Below are positions 50,101 through 64,000 of a DNA stretch of 64,000 nucleotides, piece by piece. The stretch is from the NCBI GenBank assembly GCA_030429205.1, contig JAUICZ010000001.1:2098806-2162805 (forward strand). The letters are read 5' to 3'. The position numbers and the translations under genes are program-made. This stretch comes from Bacteroidia bacterium (GTDB lineage Bacteria > Bacteroidota > Bacteroidia > Chitinophagales > Chitinophagaceae). How positions within the stretch are numbered: position 1 is the stretch's first letter; each line of letters opens with the position of its first letter. The notes under the pieces were generated by a model that made no database searches, had not been told where the DNA came from, and saw only the letters and a list, made by a program, of their open reading frames with translations.

Positions 50101-53100
50101 TGAAAGTGGTTATCAGTATCGTTGTGTAGTAAGTGGAACATGTACACCAAGTGTAACATCTTCTGTCGTAGCGTTGACAGTAAACAGCGCTCCTGCTTTG
50201 ACTCTGCAACCAACTAATAGTACAATTTGTGAAGGCGCAAGTACATCTTTCGGAATTACAGCAACAGGAACATCATTGACTTATCAATGGGAAGTGAATA
50301 GTGGTAGTGGCTGGAGTAACGTTACGAATGCGGGTGTGTACGCAGGAGCAACATCAAATACATTGAGTTTAACTACACCTCCTGCATCTATGTCATCTTA
50401 TCAGTACCGTTGTATTGTTGGGGGAACGTGTGTGCCGGGTGTAACTTCTAATACTGCAACATTAACAGTAAATACGTTGCCTGCAATAACTGGCCAGCCA
50501 ACAAGTAGTGTAATCTGTTCTGGTAGTAATACCAGCTTCAAAGTGTCAGCAATAGGCACATCATTAGCTTACCAGTGGCAAGTAAATACAGGTAGCGGTT
50601 GGGGCAATGTAACAAATACAGGTATCTACTCGGGTGCTACAACAGACTCATTAGTGTTAACAGCTGCCACAACTGCAGCAAATGGTTCTCAGTATCGTTG
50701 CGTGGTAAGCGGTACATGTACACCAAGTGTAACGTCTTCTGCAGTAGCATTAACAGTAAATACAGCGCCGTCAATTTCTACGCAACCATTAGCGAGTGTT
50801 ATATGCGAAGGTGCTAATACAAGTTTTACTGTGTCAGCAACGGGAACATCGCTTGCTTATCAATGGGAAGTAAATACAGGTAGTGGTTGGAGTAACGTTG
50901 TTAATGCAGGTGTATACGCTGGTGCTACAACTAATACATTAAGCTTAACAGCTCCTGCTGCAGCTATGTCAGGTTATCAATACCGTTGTGTGATTGGTGG
51001 TGTGTGTGTGCCGGGAGTAACAACCTCTGCAGTATCATTAACAGTAAATACAGCTCCAGTAATCACAAGTCAACCTGTAAATGGTGTTGTTTGTTTTGGT
51101 CAGGATACATCATTTAGTATATCGGCTACAGGAACATCACTTAACTATCAATGGGAAGTGAACAGTGGAAGTGGCTGGAGCAATGTAACTAATACAGGTG
51201 TTTATAGTGGAGCTACAACAAGCATGCTAAGTCTTACAACACCTGCAGCAAGTATTAGCGGTTATCAGTACCGCTGTGTAGTAAGTGGTACGTGTACACC
51301 AAGTGTTACTTCTTCAACTGTTTCTATAACAGTGAATACTGCGCCATCAATATCAACGCAACCGAGTAATAGTATAATATGTACAGGTGGTAATACTTCG
51401 TTTAGTATTTCAGCTAGTGGCACGGCCCTTACTTACCAGTGGCAGGTAAATAGTGGTAGCGGTTGGAGTAATGTAACCAATGCAGGTATCTACAATGGTG
51501 CTACAACAAATACACTTAGCTTGACAGCAGCCACAACAGTGGTGAATAGTTATCAATACCGTTGTTTGGTAAACGGTACCTGCAACCCTGGTGTTACATC
51601 TAACGTAGCATCTCTTACAGTGAATATACCGCCTGCTATAACGGCTAGTCCAAGTGATAGTACGATCTGTTCTGGTGATAATGCCAGCTTTAGCATAACG
51701 GCTACAGGTACCAGTATAGGTTATCAGTGGCAAGTAAATAGTGGTAGTGGTTGGAGTAATGTGACAAATACAGGTGTTTATAGTGGTGCTACAACTAATA
51801 CATTGAGCTTGACAGCCGCAACTACAACTGTTCATGGATATCAATATCGTTGCTTGGTTAATGGTGTATGTCCACCACAAGCAACATCTGGTGTGGCTAC
51901 CTTAACTGTTAATGCATTACCTGCAATAACATCTCAACCAACGAACAGTGTTATTTGTGAGCATACCAATACTTCATTTTCTATATCAGCTACGGGTACA
52001 GGTATTACTTACCAGTGGCAAGTCAATAGTGGCAGTGGTTGGAGTAATGTAACGAATACAGGTATCTACAGCGGTGTTACAACCAATACTCTTAGTTTGA
52101 CAGCTGCTACAATAGCAGTACATAATTACCAATACCGTTGTGTAGTAACTGGCACATGTAGCCCAAGTGTTACATCTAATGCGGTAAGTATTACAATACA
52201 AACTGCACCAGTAGTAACAGCAGACCCTGTTAGTAAGATCATCTGTGAAGGTTTGAACCATACATTCAGTGCGACAGCGGTAGGTACAGCGCTTACATAT
52301 CAGTGGCAGGTAAATAGTGGTAGCGGTTGGAGTAATATTACTAATGGTGGTGTGTACAGCAATGCTACAACCAATGCACTTACACTAACTAGTATTCCAC
52401 CTGCTTATACAACTTATCAATATCGTTGTGTTGTGAGTGGTACTTGTGCTCCTAACGATACAACAACAGCAGCTACATTGACTGTTTATACAAACCCTGT
52501 CATCACAGCTCAACCAACTGGTAATATTACCATATGTAGTGGTGATTCTACAGGTTATAGTTTGTCGGCTACAGGTACAGGCCTAACGTATCAGTGGAGA
52601 GTGTTTAATGGTAGCACATGGAGTAATGTAACTAACAATAGTGTGTATAGTGGTGCAACTACCAATAGCTTAAGCATTGATGGAGCAACAGCGCCTACAA
52701 CAGCACTTACTTATCAGTACTATTGCAATATTACTGGTACTTGTGCGTCAGTTAACTCTGATACATCTACTTTGTTGATCAATGCAAGGCCTGCAATAGT
52801 AACACAGCCTTCTGCTGTTGCTGTTTGTGATAGCACTACAAATGTTCAGTTTTCAGTTGTAGCTACGGGAACTAACCTTAGCTACCAATGGCAGGAGCGA
52901 GTAGGTAGTACATGGGTAAACTTGGCAAATGGAGGTATTTACAGCGGAGCAACTACAAATCAATTAAGTATGTCTCAGGTATACTACTCTATGAATGGGT
53001 ACAACTACAGGTGTATAATAAGCGGAACTTGTCCACCATCGGTTACAACACAACAAAAACAATTGACTGTACACCCATTAAAGACACCTGCGGTATTCTT

Positions 53101-54424
53101 AACAGCGTCAAATCTGGATATTTGTGTAGGAACTCCTGTTACATTTACTCCGCATCATATTAACGGAGGTAGTACTCCAAGTTATGTATGGAGGGTAAAT
53201 AACACTAATGTAGCCACAGGTAGTACATTTACATCATCTACACTCGCTGATGGAGATACAGTTTCTTGTATCATGACATCCAGCTATGTATGCCCAAGGC
53301 CAGCAACAGCAACAAGTGCCGGGTTAGGAGTGAAAGTAACTCCATACTCGAAACCAACGGTGACAATATCTTCTCCTAACGGTAATAAAGGGTGTTTGGG
53401 TAGAGATGTGAAATTCTATACACAAACAACACATGCCGGACCAACACCAATATTTACATGGCAGGTAAATGGTCAAACAATTGGTGGAAATACGGATTCG
53501 TTTATTAACAACACAGTACTTAACGGAGATGTCATTAGTTGTATCATGACCAGTAGCATTAAATGCCCTAAACCCAATCCGGTAAGTAGTAACAGCGTTA
53601 TAATGGATATGATTAAGGTTACAAAGGCAAGTATACAAATAGCTGCAGCCCCTGATACTGAAATATGTAAAGAGCAGAAAGTAACATTGTATACCTACTA
53701 CACTAATGGTGGTAGCCTGCCAAGATATCAATGGATGGTTAATGGTAAGGATATAGTAGGAGACACTAATGCAACATTGATAATAACAAACATCAAAGAT
53801 CTGGATACGATACAATGTCGTTTCATGAGTAGTGCAAGATGCGTGTTCCCTGAAGTCAGTAATCCTATCAAGTTTAACGTAGATAGTGTAAGAACTCCTG
53901 TAGTCGATGTGTCGGTATATGGAACAGGTAATAATAGTTACACATTCAGAGCCATAACCCAATATGGCGGTATTAATCCTAAATTTCAATGGTTTAAGAA
54001 TGGTCGCGTGATTCCTGGTGCTACTGATAGTATATATGTTGCAAATGATTTAAAGAGGTACGATAAGATAACAGTTGAATTGGTAAGTAGCATAGAGTGC
54101 GTAAGTAAGAAAGTAGTAATGAGTAGAAATATTACTACAGGTATAGTAGAAAATCAGAGTGCTGCTGATGATTTAGAGTTATACCCTAACCCTAATAATG
54201 GATCGTTCTATATAACAAGTACTAGCGGCGGTGTTATGTTTAATAATGCGACGATAAAAATAGTAAACGCAGTAGGGCAGAAGGTATACGAGCGATCAAT
54301 AAAAATTACAGGTAGTAGGTTGAAAGAGCAAGTCAAGCTGAATGACCTGGCTGCAGGTATGTACATGTTGTATATAAACACTGATAGTAAAAACTACATG
54401 AAGAAATTCATGATTAGTAAATGA
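44126..54424 (+). CDS. Giant Ig-like-repeat T9SS surface protein
   Basis: A 3432-residue exported protein (signal peptide ending DAFAQ). After one Ig-like domain and a separate ~200-residue beta domain (GPGSGSSGGDSLATSYNQ onward), about 28 tandem Ig-like domains of 80-90 residues follow, each with a YQW core (TYQWQVNTGSGWSNV) and a YQYRCV strand with a cysteine pair. The last four domains are of a different sort (e.g. SYVWRVNN, ISCIMTSS). It ends with a type A T9SS sorting domain (LELYPNPNNGSFYITS, DLAAGMYMLYIN). Such proteins are adhesins. Repeats are close at DNA level, implying recombinational copying. Confidence 0.92.
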   Translation: MSMHYTKKLVLLINVLVLSVLSIDAFAQAPSISSHPSHDTACQGGAGYFLVTASNTTSYQWQVNTGSSWSNLSNGGVYGGVTTDSLYITAPTIAMDGYQYRCIATGSTSPAATSNAATLYVSGITATTNDTVCAGQNGQLTATATSSTSLINWYTASSGGTLVDTGSTLTINAASATTTYYAETQGPGSGSSGGDSLATSYNQNNGQRGAMFDVVAGSSPITVTGFDANLYTGTTAYYELYYRQSTHVGYQNSSTGWIFLDSAYNVTSLGNNVPTPLPFTFSVTIPANTRYSFYITNSFGGGLLYTDGTAVGNTLASNSDATIYEGVGKSYPFGLTFTVRNVNATMHYTLGSPSCNSASRVAATLTVNPQSNITSNPSNSSISSGANTSFSISATGATSYQWQLSTNSGSTWTNITNTGVYSNATTTTLGLTSVTGSYNGYQYRCIASNASGCDDTSTAATLSVSGTSPSISAHPSDSTICSGNNASFAVAASGTSLTYQWQVSTNSGSTWSNLSNTGIYSGATSATLSLTAATTSYNSYQYRCVVSGSVSPSATSNAATLTIDSSFTAALINDYPEICLGSDTSFTAYATGSSNYTYQWYVSTNYGSSFSSISNGGIYSGATSSTLTLTSPPASAHAYYYYCAITNGCSVTVNTDTGFIGIYSPPSISTSPSDSTVCVGNNASFSVSATGASLTYQWQVSTNSGSTWSNISNTGVYSTATTATLNITGATSGMNSYQYRCVVSGSCSPSATSSAATITITPTPSISSHPGSSSVSVNGNTTFTVSANNASSYQWQISTNSGSTWSNLSNGGVYSGVTTSTLSLTTIPLSYNGYQYRCVASGTCNPAANSNAATLTVTGSAPSISSHPQDSTICSGNNASFAVAASGTSLTYQWQVSTNSGSTWSNLANAGIYSGVTTSALLLTSATTTHSSYQYRCVVSGSVSPSATSNAATLTIDSAFTSALGHDYPEICLGSDTSFTAYPTGSSNYTYQWKVSSNYGSSFSNVTNTGFYGGATAQTLSLTSPPVSAHAYYYFCTVTNGCSVSVNTDTGFIAIYSPPSISSHPVNSTIGAGSNTSFSVTASASSIVYQWQVSTNGGSTWSNLSNTGIYSGVTTATLTLTAASAAYNSYQYRCVVSGTCAPTATSNAATLTVNTAPAITAQPTDSTICNGANATFGISATNATAYQWQVSTNGGSSWSNLSNTGIYSGVTTATLTLTAATLSYNNYQYRCEVTGLTTPNAISNGATLTINTAPAISSHPTDSTVCETANASFSVSATGTSLSYQWQENTGSGWGNIANGGGYSNATTAGLTITGASASMSTYQYRCVVTGGCAPAATSNAATLTVNTAPLITAQAAHRTICNGDNTTFSITATGTSLTYQWQVNTGSGWSNVSNAGIYSGATTSTLALTAATTAEDGYQYRCVVSGACSPSETSSARSLTIYTAPVINTQPANTTVCSGGNANFSVAASGNGLTYQWQVNTGSSWSNLSNTGIYSGTTNSTLTLTGATTGSVSGYYYRCIVNGTCSPAVTSDSAELSINSLLSVTTQPTNSTICSGNSTSFTVVASASGLTYQWQVNTGSGWSNVTNTGIYTGATTATLNLATPATSASGNQYRCVLSSSCAAPINSNSATLTVNVAPAITAQPTNSTVCLGSNTSFSVAATGSGIVYQWQVNSGSGWSNVINTGIYSGATTSTLALTAPTASVSTYQYRCVIGGSCVPGVNSDSVMLIVNTPPSINTQPSVSTICSGNNTNFKVSATGTSLTYQWEVNSGSGWANVTNTGIYSGVTSDSLVLTAATTAENGNQYRCVVSGACTPSVTSSSVALTVNSAPALTLQPANSTICEGASTSFGITASGTSLTYQWEVNTGSGWSNVTNTGVYAGATTNTLSLTTPPASMSSYQYRCIVGGTCVPGVNSNTATLTVNTLPTITNQPISSIICSGNNTSFKVSATGTSLAYQWQVNSGSGWSNVANTGIYSGATTDSLVLTAATTAESGYQYRCVVSGTCTPSVTSSVVALTVNSAPALTLQPTNSTICEGASTSFGITATGTSLTYQWEVNSGSGWSNVTNAGVYAGATSNTLSLTTPPASMSSYQYRCIVGGTCVPGVTSNTATLTVNTLPAITGQPTSSVICSGSNTSFKVSAIGTSLAYQWQVNTGSGWGNVTNTGIYSGATTDSLVLTAATTAANGSQYRCVVSGTCTPSVTSSAVALTVNTAPSISTQPLASVICEGANTSFTVSATGTSLAYQWEVNTGSGWSNVVNAGVYAGATTNTLSLTAPAAAMSGYQYRCVIGGVCVPGVTTSAVSLTVNTAPVITSQPVNGVVCFGQDTSFSISATGTSLNYQWEVNSGSGWSNVTNTGVYSGATTSMLSLTTPAASISGYQYRCVVSGTCTPSVTSSTVSITVNTAPSISTQPSNSIICTGGNTSFSISASGTALTYQWQVNSGSGWSNVTNAGIYNGATTNTLSLTAATTVVNSYQYRCLVNGTCNPGVTSNVASLTVNIPPAITASPSDSTICSGDNASFSITATGTSIGYQWQVNSGSGWSNVTNTGVYSGATTNTLSLTAATTTVHGYQYRCLVNGVCPPQATSGVATLTVNALPAITSQPTNSVICEHTNTSFSISATGTGITYQWQVNSGSGWSNVTNTGIYSGVTTNTLSLTAATIAVHNYQYRCVVTGTCSPSVTSNAVSITIQTAPVVTADPVSKIICEGLNHTFSATAVGTALTYQWQVNSGSGWSNITNGGVYSNATTNALTLTSIPPAYTTYQYRCVVSGTCAPNDTTTAATLTVYTNPVITAQPTGNITICSGDSTGYSLSATGTGLTYQWRVFNGSTWSNVTNNSVYSGATTNSLSIDGATAPTTALTYQYYCNITGTCASVNSDTSTLLINARPAIVTQPSAVAVCDSTTNVQFSVVATGTNLSYQWQERVGSTWVNLANGGIYSGATTNQLSMSQVYYSMNGYNYRCIISGTCPPSVTTQQKQLTVHPLKTPAVFLTASNLDICVGTPVTFTPHHINGGSTPSYVWRVNNTNVATGSTFTSSTLADGDTVSCIMTSSYVCPRPATATSAGLGVKVTPYSKPTVTISSPNGNKGCLGRDVKFYTQTTHAGPTPIFTWQVNGQTIGGNTDSFINNTVLNGDVISCIMTSSIKCPKPNPVSSNSVIMDMIKVTKASIQIAAAPDTEICKEQKVTLYTYYTNGGSLPRYQWMVNGKDIVGDTNATLIITNIKDLDTIQCRFMSSARCVFPEVSNPIKFNVDSVRTPVVDVSVYGTGNNSYTFRAITQYGGINPKFQWFKNGRVIPGATDSIYVANDLKRYDKITVELVSSIECVSKKVVMSRNITTGIVENQSAADDLELYPNPNNGSFYITSTSGGVMFNNATIKIVNAVGQKVYERSIKITGSRLKEQVKLNDLAAGMYMLYINTDSKNYMKKFMISK
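45270..53050 (+). repeat. Tandem DNA repeats encoding Ig-like domains
   Basis: About 27 tandem units of roughly 240-270 bases encode the Ig-like domains. Neighbouring units between about 48.2 and 52.5 kb are most alike: the tggagtaatgt-acaaataca and tatcagtatcgttgtgt segments return almost unchanged, as do the gcaacaggtacatc-type stretches. The pattern suggests expansion by unequal exchange; repeat number may vary between strains. Confidence 0.85.
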
Positions 54425-54489: not shown

Positions 54490-55677
54490 TTACAGTAAGT
54501 GGATTTTTATGTAACCGGATTGAATGAGTGTTTTAGCCAGAGACAGCTTTTGTGATTCTGTAACAAGTCCCTTTATCTCTTTTATAAGAAATGGCTCGTC
54601 TTGTAAGAATACATTTGGGTCGATCAATTTAGGTATTGATATTTTTTGATTGCCAAAATTGATAACAATACCATTTTCGTCTTTTGTTACTTGATATTCA
54701 ACTCCACTATATCTGGCAACTTGAGTAGTGAGTGTTAGTCGCTCGGCCTCAATAATATTACTTAAGCGTCCTTTTAAGTCTAGCGCTTGCTTCTCAATAA
54801 AAAGGTTTTGTTGAGTTTGGAGTAAAGATTCTGTTGGGAACTGGTTGATGAGGTTGGTTAGATGCTCGTTGAATAACTTAATGTATTCCTCTCTTTTATT
54901 AGTAGAAGTGTATCTGTTAGGAATAGTTTTTCTGAAAAATGTATCATTTTCTTCAGCAAGTTTTGCCAGTTCCTCTATTAAGTGAAACCCATATCGAGGT
55001 TTAATGGAGAAGTTTACATGTATTGTTGCTACGTCTGAACTAAAAGCCTCGTGAACAACACCCCTGGGCATGTATAGTAGGTCTCCTGTTTCAATATTGA
55101 TCTCTTCGAGTAATTTTGGCTCTTTTTTAAAACTATTTACGCTTGTAGGTAGCTCTTCACCACTGTGGTACATGCGCCATGTTTTGGGGCCTTTTATTTG
55201 TAGTAAAAATATATCGTGTGTATCGTAGTGTTTTGAAAATCCCTGAGCATTTGGTGGGGTGATGTAAACATTTGCCTGAGATTTTATTCCTAATTCATGC
55301 TCAATACATTTATTTATTCTTCCCAGTGCTGGGATCATCATATCCGCAAAACTGATAATAATGGTTGCTCCGTCGTTATAATGACGGAGTACCAGTTCTG
55401 GAGCAACGGTAATATTCTTAACTCCATCTAGTATAGTGTAAGTTTTTGTCCACTCTTTTTCCGGAATTTGCTCTCCGTTTTTAGCTAACCGTAAACCTTC
55501 CGGCTTAAGGTTTTGCAGGCTTAAGAAATCATCTAATTGGTCAATTGTTATTAGGTCTTCATACGAATGGTTTTCTTTTTGTACATGTATGTAGTTTTGC
55601 TCCCAATAGTTTTCGAAAAAATCATTGATAGACAATGGAGCTAAAAGCTGTGATATGCTTATCTGATCATCTGCCAT
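54490..55677 (-). CDS. JmjC-type cupin oxygenase (lasso locus)
   Basis: A 395-residue protein of the JmjC/ribosomal-oxygenase-like family: a cupin core with the iron ligands H150, D152 (HYD in FSKHYDTHD) and H209 (GVVHEAF), followed by a helical region and a small C-terminal winged-helix-like part. JmjC oxygenases use 2-oxoglutarate to hydroxylate protein residues. It is the last gene of the lasso-peptide operon, 10 bases after the kinase, so the lasso peptide or its precursor is the likely substrate; this is inference, since no JmjC lasso tailoring is known to me with certainty. Confidence 0.85.
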   Translation of the reverse strand: MADDQISISQLLAPLSINDFFENYWEQNYIHVQKENHSYEDLITIDQLDDFLSLQNLKPEGLRLAKNGEQIPEKEWTKTYTILDGVKNITVAPELVLRHYNDGATIIISFADMMIPALGRINKCIEHELGIKSQANVYITPPNAQGFSKHYDTHDIFLLQIKGPKTWRMYHSGEELPTSVNSFKKEPKLLEEINIETGDLLYMPRGVVHEAFSSDVATIHVNFSIKPRYGFHLIEELAKLAEENDTFFRKTIPNRYTSTNKREEYIKLFNEHLTNLINQFPTESLLQTQQNLFIEKQALDLKGRLSNIIEAERLTLTTQVARYSGVEYQVTKDENGIVINFGNQKISIPKLIDPNVFLQDEPFLIKEIKGLVTESQKLSLAKTLIQSGYIKIHLL

Positions 55678-55687
55678 ACAATACTTT

Positions 55688-56659
55688 TTAAAGAAGTTCT
55701 CTGAAATCGTTTACGATCTCATTACAGTTTTCGTTTAGTAGGTCAAGGTTATGTTCGAAGTTAATTTTTCGTATTGGTATTTGTTTGGTTAAATACGCAA
55801 AAAATGAAAATTCCTGACGTTTTAACTCCTTGTTCAGCATGTAAGCGGCAAAAGAGTGTTCCATAACCTGTACCAGCTTTTGTGCAGCAGTTACAGCTTC
55901 AAACTGTGGTTTGTTTCCAATGTTTTCAGTGGGGTTAAGTATGTATATAGCTTTCAGAGGTAGCTCTTTTTCTTCAAAACTATCTTCGATGTTTGTATAT
56001 CTACTATCTCTGTTTGGGTATACTTGTTGAAAGTCTTCTGCTTGTTTACTGTGTATAGCTTCAAGGCTTTGTGGCCTCAGACGAACTTTTGGATACCCGG
56101 GAGCTACTAAAAAAGTGTCTTCTGATTTTGATAAAACAGCTAAATCATCGGCAATGACATTAAACCCATTTTTAACAAAAGTAGCTGCCATTGTAGATTT
56201 GCCTGCTCTTTTTCTGCCTATAAATGCTACCGCATTGCAATCGATATTTATTACAGAAGAGTGCAGGCAGACAATTCCTTTTAAGCGTTGTACAGCGCCC
56301 AGGGCAGGCCCTACAAGTATAGATTCGATATTGTATATAGGCTCTTTTTTATCATGGACGATCCACATTTGGTCAAAAGAAGGGTTTAGTATAAATAATA
56401 GAATGCCTGTATCTGTAAAATAATTTAGTTTGTGATATGTGCCTTCTTTTGACTCAGCTGTAAATACGTGTAAGCGTTGTCTGTTTTCGAGCCCCTTATT
56501 CAAGAAACGTTCCCATTTTAATGAATTGAAAGGTGTGCTGTTTTTATCAGTAGTCCAATGTATTGATAAGTCTGTAGTGTCAGTTAGGGTAGTGGGTAGA
56601 ATATCAATTTCCTTAGAACTGTTGATCTGAAGCCCGTATATTTTGTAGTTAAAATTCAT
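55688..56659 (-). CDS. HPr kinase-like lasso peptide kinase
   Basis: A 323-residue protein resembling HPr kinase/phosphorylase: a Walker A loop G148-RKRAGKS (in AFIGRKRAGKST) and an ADDLAVL acid motif (about residues 170-176). HPr-kinase-like enzymes in lasso-peptide loci phosphorylate the C-terminal serine of the precursor (known for paeninodin). Both precursors here end in Ser. The ATG at 56659 is chosen; a GTG at 56668 lies next to the stop of the cyclase gene. It follows the cyclase by 9 bases. Confidence 0.85.
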   Translation of the reverse strand: MNFNYKIYGLQINSSKEIDILPTTLTDTTDLSIHWTTDKNSTPFNSLKWERFLNKGLENRQRLHVFTAESKEGTYHKLNYFTDTGILLFILNPSFDQMWIVHDKKEPIYNIESILVGPALGAVQRLKGIVCLHSSVINIDCNAVAFIGRKRAGKSTMAATFVKNGFNVIADDLAVLSKSEDTFLVAPGYPKVRLRPQSLEAIHSKQAEDFQQVYPNRDSRYTNIEDSFEEKELPLKAIYILNPTENIGNKPQFEAVTAAQKLVQVMEHSFAAYMLNKELKRQEFSFFAYLTKQIPIRKINFEHNLDLLNENCNEIVNDFRELL

Positions 56660-56668
56660 TAATCGCAC

Positions 56669-58570
56669 TTATTGAAATTCTCGGAAGCGTCTTAGAAAAT
56701 GAATAAGATAAATTCCTTGTGGTAAATAATGCAGTGCAATATTAATAGTATTCCTGTCTTTTTCTGTATTTGAAACAGGTATTTCTGCCCATCGTTTCAG
56801 CTTTTCAACATCTACAACATTTCTAATAGGATCGTTTTCAGATATTGCATTTAGGAAGGCTTTACCTATTTCTATTTGCTTGTTGTATTTTCTGTAATAA
56901 TCCGGAGAAAAAGGTTTTTTGTCATTTCTCCATTGTATTTCTTTAGGCAATATGCCATCTAACCCACTACGTATCATATACCTTTTGTATCCATTTTTTA
57001 TCTTATACTCAGCTGGTGTGTTCAGTGCAAATTCAATGAGCCGAATATCTTTAAAGGGGTATCTATATTCACCAAGATCAAAGCTCTCTCTTGGGTTCCC
57101 TTTATGTTGAATAGTCTTTATAACCTTAATTTGATTGCGTTTATGATCATAGGATGGTGTGGTAAAACGACGTGGCAAATATTCTTTTCTGTGCTTTAAC
57201 TGTTCTACAAGCTCTGTAGCAAGGTTAGAGTTAATAAAGTTGAATTTATTAGGTTTAAGCAGCTCTGATTCTCCTCTTACTTTGTAAATGATCTCATCTG
57301 GCACAAAGGGTTTTAAAGTATGATAGCGTAAGTTGTGTGTTATAGTTTCTTTTGTGATTTTTTTACGGGTAATAAGTTCATCCATAAGCCATAACCAGTT
57401 GAACTTCTTTAGCTGCTCTGCATATATACCATGTCCATGAAATGTTGGCCCAAGCTCTCCATATGCACCGTCAAGAATAGTTCTGCTACCTAGTGTGGTT
57501 GCTCTTTTTGCAAAAGCATCATAAAGATAATGGCGTGACGTTAATGGTGCTGCTGTATGTGATGTATTTAGCTTATCCAGATTGTCTAAAAAACCAGTAT
57601 TTGTTTCATCTATGTAGTGGATGTTAATGTTAGGGAACTTTTTAAATAAGTCGATGTAATATCTTTCGTCTTCAATTCCACTTTTATCACCTTCAGGTAG
57701 TACAGAAGAAAATACATCCAATGTTTTATTTTCTTTCTCTAATATTTTTGCAGCTACAGCCACGACAGCTGAGGAGTCCAGCCCACCACTTAATAACGCC
57801 GTAACAGGGTAGTGGCTATTGAGCCGTTCTTTGACTGATGAAAAGAAAATGTCCTGAAATGCCTCTCTGAAAGCCATTTCATTTTTGAAGTAAAGAGTAT
57901 TACCCACTGCAGGCTTCCAATATCTTTGGTTTCTTATACCATCTTTACTTACAGTAATTACTGTAGCTGCGGGTACCGGATAAATATCTTTAAACCATGT
58001 TTCTGTCCTAAAAAGCTCTTTTGCAGCATCAATAACAAGTGTAGAAAGCTTGTTATCATTGATCTGGTTTGGGACACCATCTACTGCAACTATTTGTTGT
58101 ATATCTGATGCAAAGATGAATTTTTGCCCATTATAGTAATAGTATAAAGGAACAGTTGCAAAGTGGTCGGCAAAACAATGAAGCTGTTGCTTATTGGCAT
58201 CCCAAATAACGAAAGCAAAATCGCCCAGAAGGTGTTCTACACAGTTAGTTTCCCACTTTCTGTATGCATTAAGTATAAGCTGTCCGTCAGTTTTGTCGGC
58301 GCTACTGCTTAGCTGTAATTTTTTAATTAGCTGTGCCTTGTTATCTAGCCTAATGTCACCAATTAGAACCAAAGATGATTGATCATCTTTTAAAGGATAC
58401 ATATCCAGTAGTGAATCATGAGTATTGTAAACAGTATTCTGCCCTAATGCAATATTGTCAATATACCACGCGTCTGCCCTGTCTGAATTTAAAAAAGGCC
58501 GTGATAGTTGCTTAAAGCAAACGTCACAACCTTTTTTATCAATATTATAAATGCCATAAATAGCTGACAT
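56669..58570 (-). CDS. Lasso peptide cyclase (Asn-synthetase-like)
   Basis: A 633-residue protein of the asparagine synthetase B fold used as lasso macrolactam synthetase (C protein). The N-terminal glutaminase-like domain starts MSAIYGIYNI, where the catalytic Cys of true AsnB (position 2) is Ser, so no ammonia is made. The synthetase domain holds the ATP pyrophosphatase loop SGGLDSS (261-267). It activates the side chain carboxylate of the core (Asp8 predicted) and joins it to the N-terminal amine. It follows the second precursor by 28 bases. Confidence 0.93.
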   Translation of the reverse strand: MSAIYGIYNIDKKGCDVCFKQLSRPFLNSDRADAWYIDNIALGQNTVYNTHDSLLDMYPLKDDQSSLVLIGDIRLDNKAQLIKKLQLSSSADKTDGQLILNAYRKWETNCVEHLLGDFAFVIWDANKQQLHCFADHFATVPLYYYYNGQKFIFASDIQQIVAVDGVPNQINDNKLSTLVIDAAKELFRTETWFKDIYPVPAATVITVSKDGIRNQRYWKPAVGNTLYFKNEMAFREAFQDIFFSSVKERLNSHYPVTALLSGGLDSSAVVAVAAKILEKENKTLDVFSSVLPEGDKSGIEDERYYIDLFKKFPNINIHYIDETNTGFLDNLDKLNTSHTAAPLTSRHYLYDAFAKRATTLGSRTILDGAYGELGPTFHGHGIYAEQLKKFNWLWLMDELITRKKITKETITHNLRYHTLKPFVPDEIIYKVRGESELLKPNKFNFINSNLATELVEQLKHRKEYLPRRFTTPSYDHKRNQIKVIKTIQHKGNPRESFDLGEYRYPFKDIRLIEFALNTPAEYKIKNGYKRYMIRSGLDGILPKEIQWRNDKKPFSPDYYRKYNKQIEIGKAFLNAISENDPIRNVVDVEKLKRWAEIPVSNTEKDRNTINIALHYLPQGIYLIHFLRRFREFQ

Positions 58571-58598
58571 GAGCTATATGGATATGTCTTTCAAAATA

Positions 58599-58763
58599 TT
58601 AAGACAAAGAACAATCTGCTATACCACCATCAGAACCTACGCCCGGGTTGAATTGTACTAGTTCAGACAGGCTACCGTACTTTTTTAATTCTGGTGATGT
58701 GTACTCTTTTTTAGTTTCCTCTTGTTGGTTAACTGGCTGTATGTTATTCTTTTCTCTGTTCAT
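58599..58763 (-). CDS. Lasso peptide precursor A2
   Basis: A 54-residue precursor. The leader has the lasso recognition pattern Y21-x2-P24-x-L26-x3-G30-x4-L35 (YTSPELKKYGSLSEL). Predicted core from residue 38: FNPGVGSDGGIADCSLS (17 residues), with Asp at core position 8 allowing an 8-residue ring. The usual Thr at leader position -2 is Val36, which weakens the cleavage assignment. It ends in Ser, the acceptor of HPr-kinase-like enzymes. It is identical to A1 in the core and differs only at residues 3-4. Its own upstream DNA (about 50 bases) is also copied from A1. Confidence 0.9.
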   Translation of the reverse strand: MNREKNNIQPVNQQEETKKEYTSPELKKYGSLSELVQFNPGVGSDGGIADCSLS

Positions 58764-58939
58764 CTCTTAGATGTATTTACTTTTAGATAATTAACTGAGC
58801 ACAAAGTACGTAAAAATCTACAACTTGTTAATTAAAAGGGTAATACATAGTGGCTGTTTTTACTTAATAATACTTGATTTGTATTAAGTAGCAGCACAAT
58901 ATCACGATGCGGATTAATTGATTATCAATGATAAACACA

Positions 58940-58975
58940 AATAAGGTTGCAAGTAGTTAACTATACAACCTTATT
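58940..58975 (-). terminator. Hairpin between the two precursor genes
   Basis: A perfect 10-bp stem (aataaggttg at 58940-58949, caaccttatt at 58966-58975) with a 16-base loop lies 35-70 bases after the first precursor stop (minus strand). It may end or attenuate transcripts after A1, giving more precursor RNA than cyclase RNA. Confidence 0.65.
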
Positions 58976-59008
58976 TAATATGTTTAATTTAGTTAGGGTG
59001 TTCTGCTA

Positions 59009-59173
59009 TTAAGACAAAGAACAGTCTGCGATACCACCATCAGAACCTACGCCCGGGTTGAATTGTACTAATTCAGACAGGCTACCGTACTTTTTTAATT
59101 CTGGTGATGTGTACTCTTTTTTAGTTTCCTCTTGTTGGTTAACTGGCTGTATGTTATTCTTCTGGTTGTTCAT
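59009..59173 (-). CDS. Lasso peptide precursor A1
   Basis: A 54-residue precursor, same as A2 except for residues 3-4 (NQ instead of RE). Leader motif YTSPELKKYGSLSEL; predicted core FNPGVGSDGGIADCSLS with one Cys (core 14), two Asp (8 and 13) and three Ser (7, 15, 17), no Tyr or Thr. It starts 53 bases after the B2 gene, so it is probably in the same transcript, followed by a hairpin that may limit reading into A2 and the cyclase. Confidence 0.9.
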   Translation of the reverse strand: MNNQKNNIQPVNQQEETKKEYTSPELKKYGSLSELVQFNPGVGSDGGIADCSLS

Positions 59174-59226
59174 CGTATAGATGTATTTGTTTTTTAGATG
59201 TTAATTTGGCTGCAAAATAGTAAAAA

Positions 59227-59667
59227 TTATGCAATCGGCTTATCAAAAGATGTATACTTAATATTTATTTCATTTTCATCCGTAAATGGCTGACCTTCAT
59301 ATTCGAGCCAAGAGTGCGCCTTTAGCTTATTTTCCTCCAAAATCATGCCGAATTTTAGTTCTGAAATAATGCCCCTTCGTCTTAACAAAATCCAGTATGC
59401 AATACATAGGGCTAGGCAGTTAAAAAGAGGTTTGCCGGCTCTGTAACTTAAAGCAGATAGTTTATTGTATTTTTTTATATCTACCGGCTGGTATTTATCA
59501 GTTTTTCTGAATTTTGAGAATGGGGCAGCCATTTTCATGGTTTTTTTGAACCCTAATACTCGAATACTTCCTCTGAGTGCAGTTGCTAATAAATATGCCC
59601 TGAAAAAAAGCCACTTGTCAGCAAGTGACAAGCGGCGAATATTACTTATAATGACCCGAGCCCTCAT
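59227..59667 (-). CDS. Lasso peptide leader peptidase B2 (transglutaminase-like)
   Basis: A 146-residue protein of the McjB C-terminal/transglutaminase-like family that cuts the leader. The catalytic triad is visible: C84 in NCLALC, H118 in AHSWLE and D130 (12 after the His, same spacing as in McjB). The context segment LLRRRGI after the Cys is typical. Its ATG overlaps the stop of B1 (TAATG), so the two are translationally coupled. The usual recognition part is absent because B1 is a separate protein. Confidence 0.93.
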   Translation of the reverse strand: MRARVIISNIRRLSLADKWLFFRAYLLATALRGSIRVLGFKKTMKMAAPFSKFRKTDKYQPVDIKKYNKLSALSYRAGKPLFNCLALCIAYWILLRRRGIISELKFGMILEENKLKAHSWLEYEGQPFTDENEINIKYTSFDKPIA

Positions 59668-59951
59668 TAGGCCTCGATGGTAATTAAGTGTTCATTATTA
59701 AGTTCATGTAGCAGACGTGATATATCAGAGGTAAGCTCTTCAATACTCACATTGTATTCTCCCATAATTTGGTTCAGCACCCTTTCTGTATTACCATCTT
59801 CAGAGATGATATGCCACACTTTCGCTCCAATCTCATCTAAACCGAAGTATTGCTCAGATTCCATGTTTAGCAAAACATACTCATTATCAATTTCTTGAAA
59901 AAGTACGTTGTCTGATATTTTTACTTTTTTTGGTAATGTTAGCTCGCTCAT
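59667..59951 (-). CDS. Lasso peptide RRE protein B1 (PqqD-like)
   Basis: A 94-residue PqqD-like protein: VLFQEIDNEYVLLNMESEQYFGLDEIGAKVW then a helical C-terminus. It is the RiPP recognition element that binds the leader (YxxP and L-G motif) and presents it to B2. The split of B1 and B2 with a 1-base overlap is typical of lasso loci outside Proteobacteria. PQQ synthesis is rejected because no other pqq gene is nearby. Confidence 0.92.
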   Translation of the reverse strand: MSELTLPKKVKISDNVLFQEIDNEYVLLNMESEQYFGLDEIGAKVWHIISEDGNTERVLNQIMGEYNVSIEELTSDISRLLHELNNEHLITIEA

Positions 59952-60006
59952 AACATCAATTTAAAGGTGAAATTACGTTCTATATCTATTAATTCTAGTA
60001 AATGTG

Positions 60007-60654
60007 CTAAAGTTGCGCTTTGTGTCTTGTAAAATACTGTTTAGCAAAGGTATTAAAGTCCGGTTCTGCTCTAAACCAGCCTACACCTACAGTTCTTGTT
60101 CCAGTTTCTACTAAGGATAGTCTGTGCTGTAGGTCAGGGTGTATTTCAAAAATAAAAGCATCCCCTGGTTCTGTCTGCCCAAATTCGCGAATGATAGTAT
60201 CCGAGCCTTTTTTACGCATTTGAAATTTAGCGCCGGTATATCTATCTCTACCCAAGTTCAATGTCATGGCTAAGAGTCTGGTATCCGTATTGTCTCCATG
60301 CCATTTAATTTGATGTTGTTCCCCTCCTTGGCTACGGTGTATACGCCCCATGAAGTTCCCTATACTATTGCAACCTGTTATTTCTTCCAACTGCTTAAAT
60401 AGTGCTCGATCATTCATTAGCATATGGAACATAAACGGTACAGGATTGTCTAGAGGCATAAATAAAACTTCTCCAAAGGCTCCGGTATGCTCATCTTTCT
60501 CAATTTTAGTAAGAAAGTCAGTACGTTCAAGTCTGTCAACAAGTTTGTCTAATACATTCTTTTCTATTAAAGAAGGAAAGAATACACAATGAGTGTCTTT
60601 ATATTCAGCCTTATAATCGTTTATTTTAGACTGGTCTATATTAAACTTCACCAT
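60007..60654 (-). CDS. 2OG-Fe(II) oxygenase, lasso locus (OxyA)
   Basis: A 215-residue 2-oxoglutarate/Fe(II) oxygenase. The iron triad is H119, D121 (WHGDNTD) and H177 (LQHRLS), with R187 in the place that binds 2-oxoglutarate. It is a paralogue of the next gene upstream (60664), sharing the ITGC and GxKFQxRxKGSD-type segments. It lies 55 bases before B1 in the same direction. In other lasso loci, 2OG enzymes hydroxylate core Asp residues; the two core Asp and the Pro here are possible targets. The symbol OxyA is a local label. Confidence 0.88.
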   Translation of the reverse strand: MVKFNIDQSKINDYKAEYKDTHCVFFPSLIEKNVLDKLVDRLERTDFLTKIEKDEHTGAFGEVLFMPLDNPVPFMFHMLMNDRALFKQLEEITGCNSIGNFMGRIHRSQGGEQHQIKWHGDNTDTRLLAMTLNLGRDRYTGAKFQMRKKGSDTIIREFGQTEPGDAFIFEIHPDLQHRLSLVETGTRTVGVGWFRAEPDFNTFAKQYFTRHKAQL

Positions 60655-60663
60655 ATTAACTAT

Positions 60664-61305
60664 TTAGTTGTGAAAGCCGGAGTGAGGTACGTCGTCTGTA
60701 AACCAACCGGCTGCTGCAATTCTTGGATTTTCACCTGTTGTTTTTGTAACCCTGTGCAGTAAATTATCTGAAATGTCAAAAATATGGGTATCCCCTAATT
60801 TACCGCAGGAGACTTCTCGCAAAATGTCGTCAGAGTGTTTATGTTTAATTTGAAATTTGCCACCTTCATAAGGTTCTCTGCTTAAGTTAATGCTTATGGC
60901 CAAAACCCTGGTAGGGTCGAAAGTGTCTTCATGCCAGTCGAGCCTGTGTTCTTCATTGGCTTCTAGTTTATAAACCCTACCCTTAAAAGCTTTTATCTCT
61001 CTACAACCTGTAATTTGTTGTATCACTTTAAACAGCTCTTTATTATTGACAATAAAGTGAATAAGGTGTGTAGCTATATTTTTACTTTTTAGTGTATTTT
61101 CTAGTGTGTAAAGGCCTTTTTTGTTGTGCGCATGATCATTTTCATAAAACTCACCATTGGTAATACCTTGTAATGTTTTTTCCAAAAGTTTCTCTTCTAC
61201 CAATTGAGGTAGTACAATGCAACGCTTTTTTTCAAACTCTTGCTGTAGTTCAACAATTTCCGTTTCTGATGGTTTGGTCAGGCCTTTTTGTGTTAGTTGT
61301 ATCAT
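60664..61305 (-). CDS. 2OG-Fe(II) oxygenase, lasso locus (OxyB)
   Basis: A 213-residue paralogue of the preceding enzyme: iron ligands H125, D127 (WHEDTFD) and H184 (LLHRVT), 2OG-binding R195 (PRIAAAGWF). It is the first gene of the minus-strand operon, next to the divergent promoter region at 61306-61407. Two oxygenases of one type plus a JmjC protein suggest two or three separate hydroxylations. Label OxyB is local. Confidence 0.88.
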   Translation of the reverse strand: MIQLTQKGLTKPSETEIVELQQEFEKKRCIVLPQLVEEKLLEKTLQGITNGEFYENDHAHNKKGLYTLENTLKSKNIATHLIHFIVNNKELFKVIQQITGCREIKAFKGRVYKLEANEEHRLDWHEDTFDPTRVLAISINLSREPYEGGKFQIKHKHSDDILREVSCGKLGDTHIFDISDNLLHRVTKTTGENPRIAAAGWFTDDVPHSGFHN

Positions 61306-61367
61306 TGCCTACATATTACAGCACAATTATAAGGCTATTTTTCAGCTTTTCCTCTCTGCAATAGTTA

Positions 61368-61375
61368 TATCTTTG
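61368..61375 (+). promoter_or_regulatory. Promoter of the plus-strand lasso genes
   Basis: TATCTTTG matches the Bacteroidota -7 box TAnnTTTG, 32 bases before the ATG of the 61408 gene, with a TTTT at 61347-61350 as a weak -33 box. It lies in the divergent region between the two halves of the locus. Confidence 0.5.
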
Positions 61376-61407
61376 GCAGTTAGCAGCGTATAAGAAGCAG
61401 ATATTAT

Positions 61408-61863
61408 ATGGTCTATGTTATCTTTTTTATAGCAATATGTCTTGTTTTAATAGTAGTGACCATTATCGGTAAAGATTTTTGGCCCTTTTCTCACTATCCC
61501 ATGTTCTCTGTAGAACAAAAGATGGAGGATGTCAAGGTGGTAAGGTTGGCTTTGGAGGATGAGCATGGTAATGTAGAGTGGTGGCGGTCCCGTTTTTTTC
61601 GTTATCCTGAATTTACCGGCAGAAAACTTCAGAAAATCTACAACATGAATGTGCAGGGTAAAAAGCTGACGGCTTTTATTAATGTAGAAAGAGATAAGTT
61701 GTTACGATCGGTATTAAAACTGGTAGAAAAAGAAGGTTTTGGCATTAATAAATATGCCGCTATACATGTTATAGAGCGAACGGTAACAAACTCTTTTGAG
61801 GTAAAAGAAAAAACTATTGATATTATACCAATTGCAGAACTAAATGCAGGAAGTATTAAATAA
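61408..61863 (+). CDS. Membrane-anchored protein paired with HTTM protein
   Basis: A 151-residue protein with one N-terminal transmembrane helix (about residues 3-21), then KDFWPFSHYPMFSVEQK and a soluble domain with an FRYPEFTGRKLQ segment. No catalytic motif is recognised. It overlaps the following HTTM-like gene by 20 bases, so the two are likely expressed together and perhaps form a complex. Its place at the head of the plus operon of the lasso locus suggests a role in modification or export; that is inference. Confidence 0.7.
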   Translation: MVYVIFFIAICLVLIVVTIIGKDFWPFSHYPMFSVEQKMEDVKVVRLALEDEHGNVEWWRSRFFRYPEFTGRKLQKIYNMNVQGKKLTAFINVERDKLLRSVLKLVEKEGFGINKYAAIHVIERTVTNSFEVKEKTIDIIPIAELNAGSIK

Positions 61864-62665
61864 TATATTCGAACCATCAGGTGTTAACCATGTTGCTGCA
61901 TTTACAAAATTGTTTTGTGGTCTGTTGGCGTTAACTGTAATAATCAACTTTAGAGATCAGTTGGCTTATTACAGGTCTCAACCAATGAATATATATGGGA
62001 AGCCTATAAAATTATTAAGAACAATAAGCATACCTCACCCTAATGAAAAGTGGTTTATTATCTTGGGCTTAATGTTTCTTATAAGTTTGATTGTTGTAGT
62101 ATCAGGCCTATATGTAAAGTTGTTTCTGGCGATAGCACTGATTTGTTACTTCTTCTATTTCAATCCTATATCTACACTTGCTTACATACAAAGGAAAACA
62201 AACCTAATATCTTTTGTTTTGTTGATATTATTAGTGTCTCCGAACTCAGGAACGCAATTGTACGCACCAGGTACAGAATGGGAGTTAATACTAGTAAAGC
62301 TTGGTTTGGCCCAAGTATATATTTCTGCAGGTATACAAAAGTTGAAGGGCTCTGGTTGGAAATGGGCAGATGGGAAAGCGCTTCAATCTAGTTTAATGAA
62401 TAATTTTCTTTGGAGTGATAGCAAAAGCGGGTCGTGGCTGGCCAAACAAAATGGGTTATGTGTATTCTTTAGTGCGGTAACTTTACTTTTTGAATTAACT
62501 TTTGCTATAATCATATTTGTACCATGGCTGACAGGTATATATGTAATTACAGCATTGTCGTTTCATGCAGTAATACTAATAACAATGCGCATTAATTATT
62601 TGAAGTACATTTTACCTGTCTACATGGTGTTTGTTACAGATGTGCTATTTTGGCTAATGAAGTAA
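61844..62665 (+). CDS. HTTM-like multi-pass membrane protein
   Basis: A 273-residue protein with about seven hydrophobic segments. The pattern YISAGIQKLKGSGWKWADGKALQ after the fourth segment and the surroundings resemble the HTTM (vitamin-K-dependent gamma-carboxylase-like) family. Activity unknown in bacteria; gamma-carboxylases use reduced quinone. It overlaps the upstream gene by 20 bases and its TAA stop overlaps the sulfotransferase ATG (TAATG). It could be a membrane tailoring or exporter protein. No ABC transporter is encoded in the window. Confidence 0.75.
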   Translation: MQEVLNNIFEPSGVNHVAAFTKLFCGLLALTVIINFRDQLAYYRSQPMNIYGKPIKLLRTISIPHPNEKWFIILGLMFLISLIVVVSGLYVKLFLAIALICYFFYFNPISTLAYIQRKTNLISFVLLILLVSPNSGTQLYAPGTEWELILVKLGLAQVYISAGIQKLKGSGWKWADGKALQSSLMNNFLWSDSKSGSWLAKQNGLCVFFSAVTLLFELTFAIIIFVPWLTGIYVITALSFHAVILITMRINYLKYILPVYMVFVTDVLFWLMK

Positions 62666-63531
62666 TGGTTGATAAGCATTTGGATATAGGTGATTTTATG
62701 AGGGTTTGGGCTAAAATGCCCGGCCTTATTCCTGTATCAATTCAAAAAGGTAAAGTGGTATGGAAAGATGTAGGTCGGTATCACTTTTATGAAGGTTTCT
62801 TTCATAAATCCTTGAATACATTATCATTGCTAACAAATGTGCCAGAGTACACGACAGATTTGAGCATTTTGCTAAACAGTAGTTTAAGTAAAGAGGGCAT
62901 ACAGCCAACTGGTTTTATATTTCATGCCGGAAGGTGCGGCTCAACATTATTAGCTAAAGTGTTAGCCAGTAGTAGAAATAATCACCTTATCAGCGAGGCA
63001 GAACCATTAAATAAGATTTTCTTTCATTTTACAAACGACGGTTCTAAAAAATTTGAACTTGATGATGAAAAAGTGCTGATGTATAAAAACTTGTTATTAG
63101 CACTATCCAGAAAAAGGGTGGAAACGCACAGTCGATGTTTTGTGAAGTTTAGTTCGTATAATATTCACTTTTTTAATTTTATTAATAAAGCTTTCCCATT
63201 AGTACCTAAGATATTTATTTCAAGAGATACAGATGAAATTGTAGCGTCATTTCAAAAAAAGCCGGCAGCGTGGATGCATGAGGAAAATTATAGTGTCGTA
63301 AAAGAGGTTTTTAAATTGCAAGGCAGTGACATAAAGGGGATAGTAGAGGGCTTTAAGTTAGAGGCTGAGGGGCTTAATAGGTTAGATTACAAAGAGTTGA
63401 CGCAGACAAATATCAAGAGGGTTTGTAATTACTTTGATTATGTTCCCAACGAAATGGATCTGAGTAGAATGCAAAAACAATTCAGCTACGATTCAAAGAT
63501 AGAGTTTAATAAAAAGCAGTTTGAACGTTAA
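62665..63531 (+). CDS. Sulfotransferase (lasso locus)
   Basis: A 288-residue sulfotransferase-like protein. The 5'-phosphosulfate-binding loop is GRCGSTLLAK (near residue 92), the later 3'-phosphate region IFISRDTDEIVASF. It should move sulfate from PAPS to an acceptor. The ATG at 62665 overlaps the HTTM stop. The predicted lasso core has no Tyr or Thr, so the acceptor would be Ser or a hydroxyl made by one of the oxygenases. CysD follows 8 bases later, which supports a local PAPS supply. Confidence 0.85.
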   Translation: MVDKHLDIGDFMRVWAKMPGLIPVSIQKGKVVWKDVGRYHFYEGFFHKSLNTLSLLTNVPEYTTDLSILLNSSLSKEGIQPTGFIFHAGRCGSTLLAKVLASSRNNHLISEAEPLNKIFFHFTNDGSKKFELDDEKVLMYKNLLLALSRKRVETHSRCFVKFSSYNIHFFNFINKAFPLVPKIFISRDTDEIVASFQKKPAAWMHEENYSVVKEVFKLQGSDIKGIVEGFKLEAEGLNRLDYKELTQTNIKRVCNYFDYVPNEMDLSRMQKQFSYDSKIEFNKKQFER

Positions 63532-63539
63532 AAATTTCG

Positions 63540-64000
63540 ATGGACTACCTGAAGACACTAGAAGCAGAAGCGATTTTCATATTGAGGGAAACTGCAGCAC
63601 AGTTCAAGAACCCTGTTTTGCTATTTTCCGGTGGGAAAGATTCTACAGTACTCATCCATTTAGCACAGAAAGCATTTTACCCTTTATCTACTCCGTTTAA
63701 AGTTTTGCACGTAGACACAGGTCATAACTTTGATGAAGCGTTAACATTCAGAGATAGTTTAGTTGCTCAAAATAACTTGGAACTTATAGTAAGAAGGGTT
63801 GAGGATACGGTTAGAAAATATAATATTGAAGAATCGATACAGAAACTCCCCAGCAGAAATGCATTACAGGCGTTAACATTAACAGATGCTATAAAAGAGC
63901 TTCATATAGATGCTTGTATTGGAGGAGGAAGACGGGATGAAGAAAAAGCTAGGGCAAAAGAAAGAATCTTTTCAATAAGAGATGTAGATGGCAAGTGGTT
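63540..64000 (+). CDS. cysD: Sulfate adenylyltransferase subunit 2 (CysD), partial
   Basis: The first 153 residues of CysD: VLLFSGGKDSTVLIHLAQKA (PP-loop), then LHVDTGHNFDEALTFRD and IGGGRRDEEKARAKERIFS. It makes adenosine phosphosulfate from sulfate and ATP together with CysN; APS kinase then gives PAPS. The gene runs off the window edge and starts 8 bases after the sulfotransferase. Whether it also serves cysteine synthesis cannot be told; a cysN/C gene should follow. Confidence 0.95.
   Translation, partial: MDYLKTLEAEAIFILRETAAQFKNPVLLFSGGKDSTVLIHLAQKAFYPLSTPFKVLHVDTGHNFDEALTFRDSLVAQNNLELIVRRVEDTVRKYNIEESIQKLPSRNALQALTLTDAIKELHIDACIGGGRRDEEKARAKERIFSIRDVDGKW

Follow-up and report, generated by a model that had tools for sequence, protein, structure and literature searches.

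The window analysed here is a 64,000-nucleotide stretch from a Bacteroidia bacterium of the family Chitinophagaceae (GenBank assembly GCA_030429205.1, contig JAUICZ010000001.1, positions 2,098,806 to 2,162,805). At its right-hand end is a single gene cluster of about 15 kb for a heavily tailored lasso peptide. The cluster runs past the end of the window and occupies 54490-69384, where positions above 64000 continue the window's numbering. The product is likely to be a lasso peptide that is hydroxylated, O-sulfated and phosphorylated, and perhaps capped with a sugar, for which the cluster itself would encode the supply of the sulfate donor 3'-phosphoadenosine 5'-phosphosulfate (PAPS). This reading is based on the genes, their order, motifs and predicted folds, their recurrence in other genomes, and the assimilatory reductases not being found in this one; from these we infer every chemical step, the order of the steps and their sites. 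Among the known lasso peptides are some that bear phosphate, sugar, hydroxyl, methyl or acetyl groups. Is sulfate another such group? Or do the sulfation genes beside the lasso genes serve something else?

A complete set of lasso peptide genes

The lasso genes are on the reverse strand. An earlier note on this DNA, made from the sequence alone, had described a complete set of two precursors, B1, B2 and C, and all of the genes it named are intact open reading frames where it had placed them, with the expected family matches for the lasso set. The first (59009..59173) and second (58599..58763) copies of precursor A are a 188-nt duplication, 94% identical. Each encodes 54 amino acids with the same 17-residue core, FNPGVGSDGGIADCSLS, in which the nucleotide differences are silent only. 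Tyr(-17), Pro(-14), Leu(-12) and Val(-2) set Phe1 as the start of the core and Asp8 as the ring residue. This is the YxxPxL leader motif and the Asp or Glu at core position 7-9 of lasso precursors, and both copies have it. The NCBIfam precursor models match below cut-off only (NF033528, lasso_cyano, at 0.0031 for the first copy). The macrolactam of the core has a computed mass of 1576.683 Da, in agreement with the roughly 1576.7 Da given before.

B1 (59667..59951) is a PqqD-like protein containing the recognition element (RRE) of ribosomally synthesized and post-translationally modified peptides (RiPPs), and matches PF05402 (6.7e-14) and, below cut-off, NF033536 (8.1e-16). B2 (59227..59667) is a transglutaminase-like leader peptidase (NF033537 at 2.8e-13, over cut-off; PF13471 at 2.3e-12) with Cys84, His118 and Asp130 as its triad by eye. 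The asparagine-synthetase-like cyclase C (56669..58570) matches NF033535 at 9e-119, its 398 bits falling below the curated 525, as well as PF00733 (5.5e-29) and GATase_7. The replacement of the glutaminase Cys by Ser, which the earlier note had reported, is seen at Ser2. The set therefore has the split B1/B2 arrangement together with a C that lacks the glutaminase Cys. Cyclase relatives match in 81 of 294 genomes of the family at E 1e-30, none above 33% identity besides the window's own, and many of these matches are taken for other asparagine-synthetase-like proteins. The B2 model matched 36 of 395 genomes in a sample of the phylum; within the family only the window's genome and one other (G022) were among them.

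Adjoining the cluster is a gene for a 3432-aa secreted protein (44126-54424) that has, by eye, many similar repeats and a tail like a sorting signal.

The sulfotransferase and sulfate activation

Divergently from the lasso genes, the forward strand encodes p151 (61408..61863), an HTTM protein (61844..62665), a sulfotransferase (ST; 62650..63531), cysD (63540..64000, continuing to 64433) and cysN (64443-65663). The frames of p151, HTTM and ST overlap and the gaps from ST to cysD and from cysD to cysN are 8 and 9 bp, so these five genes are probably one operon, divergent from the lasso operon. They are followed by cysC on the reverse strand (65698-66303), which encodes adenosine 5'-phosphosulfate (APS) kinase, and on the forward strand by an ATP-binding cassette (ABC) exporter (66401-68188; PF00005, 2.9e-29) and a PF14907 nucleotidyltransferase (68185-69384; 4.1e-44). 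ST and cysDNC are thus situated between the lasso core and the exporter and nucleotidyltransferase.

The window ST matches PF13469 (Sulfotransfer_3) at 9.7e-04, with 19.9 bits against a gathering score of 27. The model is matched at E 0.01 by 12 of 15 aligned family members, the best at 1e-08, and a profile search finds the human tyrosylprotein sulfotransferase TPST1 (4.4e-05). A structure model (predicted local distance difference test score, pLDDT, 87.4) has human TPST2 as its best match in the PDB (E 7.9e-06, template modelling score 0.45). The protein has the motifs (RCGST loop at 95-99, R192, S200) and the predicted TPST-like fold of a PAPS-dependent sulfotransferase. The matches for cysD (TIGR02039), cysN (TIGR02034) and cysC (TIGR00455) are over cut-off, and cysC also matches PF01583 at 2.2e-58. 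The earlier assignments of a sulfotransferase and of cysD therefore hold, the former through its family.

The earlier note would have abandoned its view if ST and cysD were constitutive assimilation genes shared with relatives; we found otherwise. No sulfite reductase was matched in the window's genome (100% complete, 12 contigs; the Pfam models used would miss a very divergent family), and the assimilatory set of PAPS or APS reductase plus sulfite reductase was likewise not found. The one cysD and the one APS kinase of the genome are both inside the cluster, and constitutive assimilation was rejected as the role of cysDNC on these grounds. The PAPS-reductase family, which includes CysD, has two matches in the genome, the cluster cysD and a weak one, which we take to be DndC of DNA phosphorothioation. 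On this evidence we read cysDNC as a likely source of PAPS. At E 0.001 a CysD is matched in 95 of 147 genomes of the family (87 over cut-off), though in neither of the two congeners sampled, and its presence therefore proves nothing alone; it is the missing reductases and the gene order that count. With sulfate-activation genes inside the cluster of a genome in which assimilation reductases were not found, sulfation is directly testable.

The DndC-like gene (G000:C4:1105714-1106385, locus L035) is followed by an ATPase gene, probably forming a DNA phosphorothioation system.

Three congeners retain the gene at the right-hand junction of the cluster. By nucleotide BLAST, which a very diverged cluster would escape, the cluster was not seen beside that gene in the stretches read from them (one contig ends 1.8 kb further), and ST was in none of the three, two of which are incomplete genomes. 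At another place, one congener (G200) gave a cyclase-like match with 29% identity. Such an absence would fit a silent or decaying island. We think this very unlikely, as all 17 reading frames of the cluster are open, the catalytic residues inspected are kept (by alignment in JmjC, 2OG and ST, by eye in B2), and the core differences of the precursor copies are silent only.

Oxygenases and kinase

Three oxygenases and a kinase, all on the reverse strand, flank the lasso genes, and the earlier identification of two paralogous 2-oxoglutarate (2OG)-Fe(II) oxygenases, a JmjC oxygenase and an HPr-kinase-like protein was borne out by family matches. The JmjC protein (54490..55677, 395 aa) is a Fe(II)/2OG oxygenase of the ribosomal-oxygenase type (JmjC_2, PF08007, 1.9e-24; profile matches to NO66 at 9.5e-34 and MINA at 1.6e-31), and its HxD...H triad (H150, D152, H209) is invariant in 4/4 aligned proteins. 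The 2OG oxygenases 1 (60007..60654) and 2 (60664..61305) are 30% identical and match PF13640 at 2.7e-05, just below cut-off, and 2.3e-09, over it. In oxygenase 1 the residues H119xD121...H177 and R187 are invariant in 5/5 aligned, and a 2OG profile search gave weak matches (0.02 at best). The cluster thus has the Fe/2OG enzyme with HxD...H that hydroxylation of the CanE type would need. The kinase (55688..56668, 326 aa) is putatively of the paeninodin PadeK type; it matches TIGR04352 (4.9e-11) and PF07475 (8.5e-05), both below the curated cut-offs, and has by eye the Walker A motif GRKRAGKST.

Recurrence of the cluster and of the sulfotransferase

Relatives of ST were sought by a scan of one genome per species with the ST alignment, and the best 80 of 99 were kept, with some redundancy (L118/L119 are one species, L120/L149 one metagenome-assembled genome (MAG), L123 equals L107 and L176 equals L079). 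The same cluster is present in L108 (Mucilaginibacter sp. L3T2-6) and L109 (a Bacteroidetes MAG, with the JmjC gene cut by the end of the stretch). The order is JmjC, kinase, C, A, B2, B1 and 2OG gene(s), and divergently p151, HTTM and ST, then the nucleotidyltransferase. The proteins are 32-56% identical to those of the window, the nucleotidyltransferases 24-26%. L109 has one 2OG gene of the window kind and a PhyH-type oxygenase. Neither stretch contains cysD, cysN or cysC. APS kinase is present in 9/9 tested genomes holding such loci, the window's included, and in those of L108 and L109 it lies elsewhere than the cluster. L111, from an Acidobacteriia MAG, has B2, p151, HTTM, ST and the nucleotidyltransferase; B1 or C was not detected there. 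A plasmid search with the window ST gave 2 of 72,556 records, Tistrella pTM3 and Azospirillum TSH100, and both matches belong to lasso loci that also have B1, C, the kinase and JmjC.

Among the 80 loci, at least two of B1, B2 and C were found in 14, one in 3 and none in 63. One of the 14, L140, is counted through B1 and B2; C was not detected in it, a radical SAM gene is present, and it may be another RiPP type. The kinase is present in 14/14. A gene for a Fe/2OG oxygenase, either Asp/Asn hydroxylase, JmjC or 2OG, is within 600 bp of ST in 55 of the 80 (6/14, 2/3 and 47/63, respectively), and of the 30 matches to the Asp/Asn hydroxylase (AspH) profile at the 37 non-lasso loci whose flanks are complete, 29 are within that distance. 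That ST pairs with such oxygenases both at lasso loci and away from them suggests a two-step modification of bacterial peptides and proteins, in which a side chain is hydroxylated and then sulfated.

As a control, 40 loci were fetched by B2 or cyclase regardless of ST, and two or more of B1, B2 and C were present in 36 of them. ST and Asp/Asn hydroxylase are each in one of the 36 (both in L079), and homologues of JmjC, 2OG, p151 and HTTM are in none. Kinase is in 27, nucleotidyltransferase in 24, exporter in 23 and collar proteins in 4. In a tree of 82 ST rows (short search; support by the Shimodaira-Hasegawa-like approximate likelihood ratio test, SH-aLRT) the window, L108, L109 and L111 are one group (SH-aLRT 95). 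The lasso label changes 8 times on this tree, each change being a gain or a loss, and at least 5 changes are forced by well-supported branches; shuffled labels gave a mean of 15.0, and as low a number in 0/500. The ST family is in lasso loci on separate branches of the tree. The linking of the sulfation genes to the lasso set, as proposed in the earlier note, is thus upheld by gene order, recurrence, the control loci and the assimilation reductases not being found.

Might ST and cysDNC nevertheless serve another substrate, a lipid, glycan or protein, and be neighbours by chance or as an adjoining unit? The wider ST family is mostly found away from lasso genes, often beside Asp/Asn beta-hydroxylase and phage-tail-collar proteins, and in none of the other lasso ST loci does cysC come within 3 kb of ST. 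We nevertheless regard another substrate as unlikely: p151, HTTM and ST adjoin lasso genes in three diverged genomes, ST is in lasso loci on several branches, its companions JmjC, 2OG, p151 and HTTM are foreign to the control loci, and the lasso core and the exporter enclose ST and cysDNC.

A number of points weigh against a sulfated lasso product. The case is built from genes and predicted folds, and the window's kinase, ST and one 2OG protein are below curated cut-offs. The profiles were built partly from the loci counted, which favours matches there. The lasso link is not universal, as the 63 loci show, nor is the oxygenase link, with 25 of 80 loci lacking a detected oxygenase within 600 bp. 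The gene cysC is within 3 kb of ST in 0/14 lasso loci, 0/3 one-gene loci and 18/63 non-lasso loci, and the control lasso loci, 35 of them without this ST, have cysC in 5 and cysD in 1. The presence of cysDNC inside the cluster is a feature of the window's genome and not of the group, and our confidence is therefore slightly lower. TPST acts on Tyr, and the core contains none. Finally, an Asp downstream of the ring residue was seen by eye in 8/8 compared cores, a pattern that is uncontrolled, the cores being hand-picked from loci that have HTTM or JmjC. The comparison omitted candidates at further ST loci (e.g. L129, L150, L166 and L176), and the L176 candidate has no Asp among its last 20 residues.

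Several observations concern sulfotransferases elsewhere. Directly before p151-HTTM-ST, L109 has a second set of genes (L109:6391-8689), for a protein of 165 aa, an HTTM-like protein and a sulfotransferase of a different kind (PF13469), with the PhyH-type oxygenase nearby. A second, different sulfotransferase adjoins or overlaps the HPr-kinase (HPrK)-type kinase gene in L079/L176, L097 (10569-12259), L102 (11257-13015), L107/L123 (L107:2124-3976), L122, L129, L139, L144, L150, L152 and L166. It is PF00685 in L097 and L102, the two that were checked, and in L097 cysD and cysN also adjoin the lasso genes. Because of these loci sulfotransferases look like a recurrent theme of lasso clusters. In the wider non-lasso family (e.g. 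L138, L118, L143) ST often adjoins an Asp/Asn beta-hydroxylase (PF05118, checked in L138 and L108), phage-tail-collar proteins (PF07484) are within 45 of the 80 ST loci, and cysC is sometimes present. The non-lasso loci are possibly an undescribed hydroxylation-sulfation system for collar-domain proteins.

Proposed pathway and sites of modification

In the pathway that we propose, B1 would bind the leader of either precursor and present the precursor. The oxygenases would act on the linear core, where the conserved tail Asp13 is the most likely site of hydroxylation. The TPST-like ST would O-sulfate a hydroxyl, the new beta-hydroxyl being the likeliest, and would draw its PAPS from CysD and CysN, encoded in the same direction, and from CysC, encoded next to them. 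A Ser, probably Ser17, would be phosphorylated by the HPrK-type kinase. B2 would then cleave after Gln(-1), C would join Phe1 to Asp8, the PF14907 enzyme may attach a sugar or nucleotide to the phosphate, and the ABC protein would export the product. A number of lasso tailoring enzymes work on the precursor while it is still linear (PMC8498205, PMC9266682, PMC10368454), and B1 assists CanE and BsfK (PMC9266682, PMC10368454).

The tail Asp is proposed because of the CanE precedent, the Asp/Asn hydroxylase partners of ST and the Asp behind the ring residue in the chosen cores. The precursors of L108 and L109 retain Gly6, Asp8, Gly9 and the tail Asp-Cys-Ser/Thr. Hydroxyproline was rejected as the hydroxylation target, Pro3 being in only 2/3 related cores. 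The site of the kinase is uncertain because the C-terminal residue, Ser17 in the window core, is Leu in that of L108 and Gly in that of L109.

Ser, Cys or a sugar are possible sites of sulfation. The sulfate might go onto a residue without prior hydroxylation (Ser7, Ser15, Ser17 or Cys14) or onto a sugar placed by the nucleotidyltransferase, with the oxygenases acting independently. Each of the three related cores has a Cys as well as a Ser or Thr, and phosphate plus hexose has a precedent in PsmK/PsmN (PMC8498205, PMC9266682). The ST family is, however, physically paired with Fe/2OG oxygenases of three kinds, although pairing is no proof of a joint substrate. We consider this arrangement a plausible alternative, if somewhat short of an even chance, and retain hydroxylation-dependent sulfation as our preferred route.

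An HTTM protein with a predicted carboxylase fold

Between p151 and ST is the 273-aa HTTM protein, and its earlier description as a divergently encoded HTTM-like protein is supported by its family and its model. No Pfam model matched the window protein itself; PF05090 is matched by 4/6 aligned members. Its AlphaFold model (pLDDT 76.6, predicted template modelling score 0.78) gives human vitamin K-dependent gamma-glutamyl carboxylase (GGCX) at all of ranks 1-14 in Foldseek, with a probability mostly of 1.00, a best E of 0.013 and none at 0.001. In VIA-align rows 1-16 are all GGCX, with a Z of 15.2 and the next unrelated match at 7.6; helical models may reach Z 13-14 without kinship. Because of this gap in Z, the run of GGCX rows and the PF05090 matches, we assign the protein a predicted GGCX membrane-domain fold. 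Sequence searches of the HTTM proteins against solved structures found nothing, and only the fold comparison matched GGCX. Lys166 is invariant in 6/6 aligned HTTM proteins, a count made within that family, and might correspond to Lys218, the catalytic residue of GGCX. The protein is rare, with the window's own and one weak match among 296 Bacteroidota genomes. Its neighbour p151 has an N-terminal hydrophobic stretch, belongs to no known family (no Pfam match at E 0.01) and aligns with proteins of L108, L109 and L111.

A membrane protein of predicted GGCX fold beside a sulfotransferase is a lead to an unknown tailoring step. With p151 it might be a menaquinol- and O2-driven modifier of the lasso core, for example carboxylating a conserved Asp (+43.990 Da), beside hydroxylation-dependent O-sulfation of the tail Asp. 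We hold this to be rather improbable. If true, it would be chemistry of the vitamin K carboxylase type in a bacterial peptide natural product, and would make a new acid-rich, possibly metal-binding class of lasso peptide.

In L140 (7734-13167, Acidobacteria) a kinase, a radical SAM protein (by eye), ST, a PqqD protein and a 425-aa HTTM protein are found together. This HTTM protein probably carries a DCC1-like thiol oxidoreductase part, and the locus is perhaps of another RiPP type.

Comparison with known systems

The earlier note had considered the gene combination, with sulfation, to be undescribed. We found no report of the combination or of a sulfated lasso peptide in the open-licence literature, which omits most subscription journals, and the available portions of PMC9266682, PMC13352647, PMC12325987, PMC13381572, PMC10368454 and PMC7533575 contain no sulfated lasso peptide. 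A sulfotransferase gene in a lasso cluster is not in itself new: Firmicutes lasso clusters with a putative one were noted by Zhu et al. in 2016, as told in PMC8498205. That gene is the likeness to our cluster, by description and not by sequence. The part of PMC8498205 available mentions no cysDNC, oxygenases or sulfated product for them, and the first two are present here.

Human TPST1/2 resemble the window ST in predicted fold and PAPS-binding motifs, at 14-18% identity, and their substrate Tyr is lacking from the core. The likeness of the HTTM protein to GGCX is that of the predicted membrane domain. The match ends at GGCX 318-321, the part beyond about residue 319 having no counterpart in the shorter bacterial protein, and the core has no Glu.

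Closer comparisons are with lasso clusters. Those with Ile/Val(-2), such as bsf of Bradymonas, share the hydrophobic -2 residue, the motif from -17 to -12, ring closure on Asp8 and a kinase; BsfK phosphorylates Ser3, and the available text of PMC10368454 mentions neither sulfation nor an oxygenase. Canucin A shares an Fe/2OG enzyme in its cluster. According to PMC9266682, CanE hydroxylates a C-terminal tail Asp of the linear precursor, with B1 helping. The window has three oxygenases of two families, likened to CanE by enzyme type and not by sequence. Paeninodin and pseudomycoidin share an HPrK-type kinase in the cluster, and pseudomycoidin also a nucleotidyltransferase; their phosphate is on the C-terminal Ser (PMC8498205, PMC9266682). 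Compared with these two, the cluster described here is in Bacteroidota, has Val and not Thr at -2, and adds three oxygenases, a sulfotransferase, cysDNC, p151 and a protein of predicted GGCX fold.

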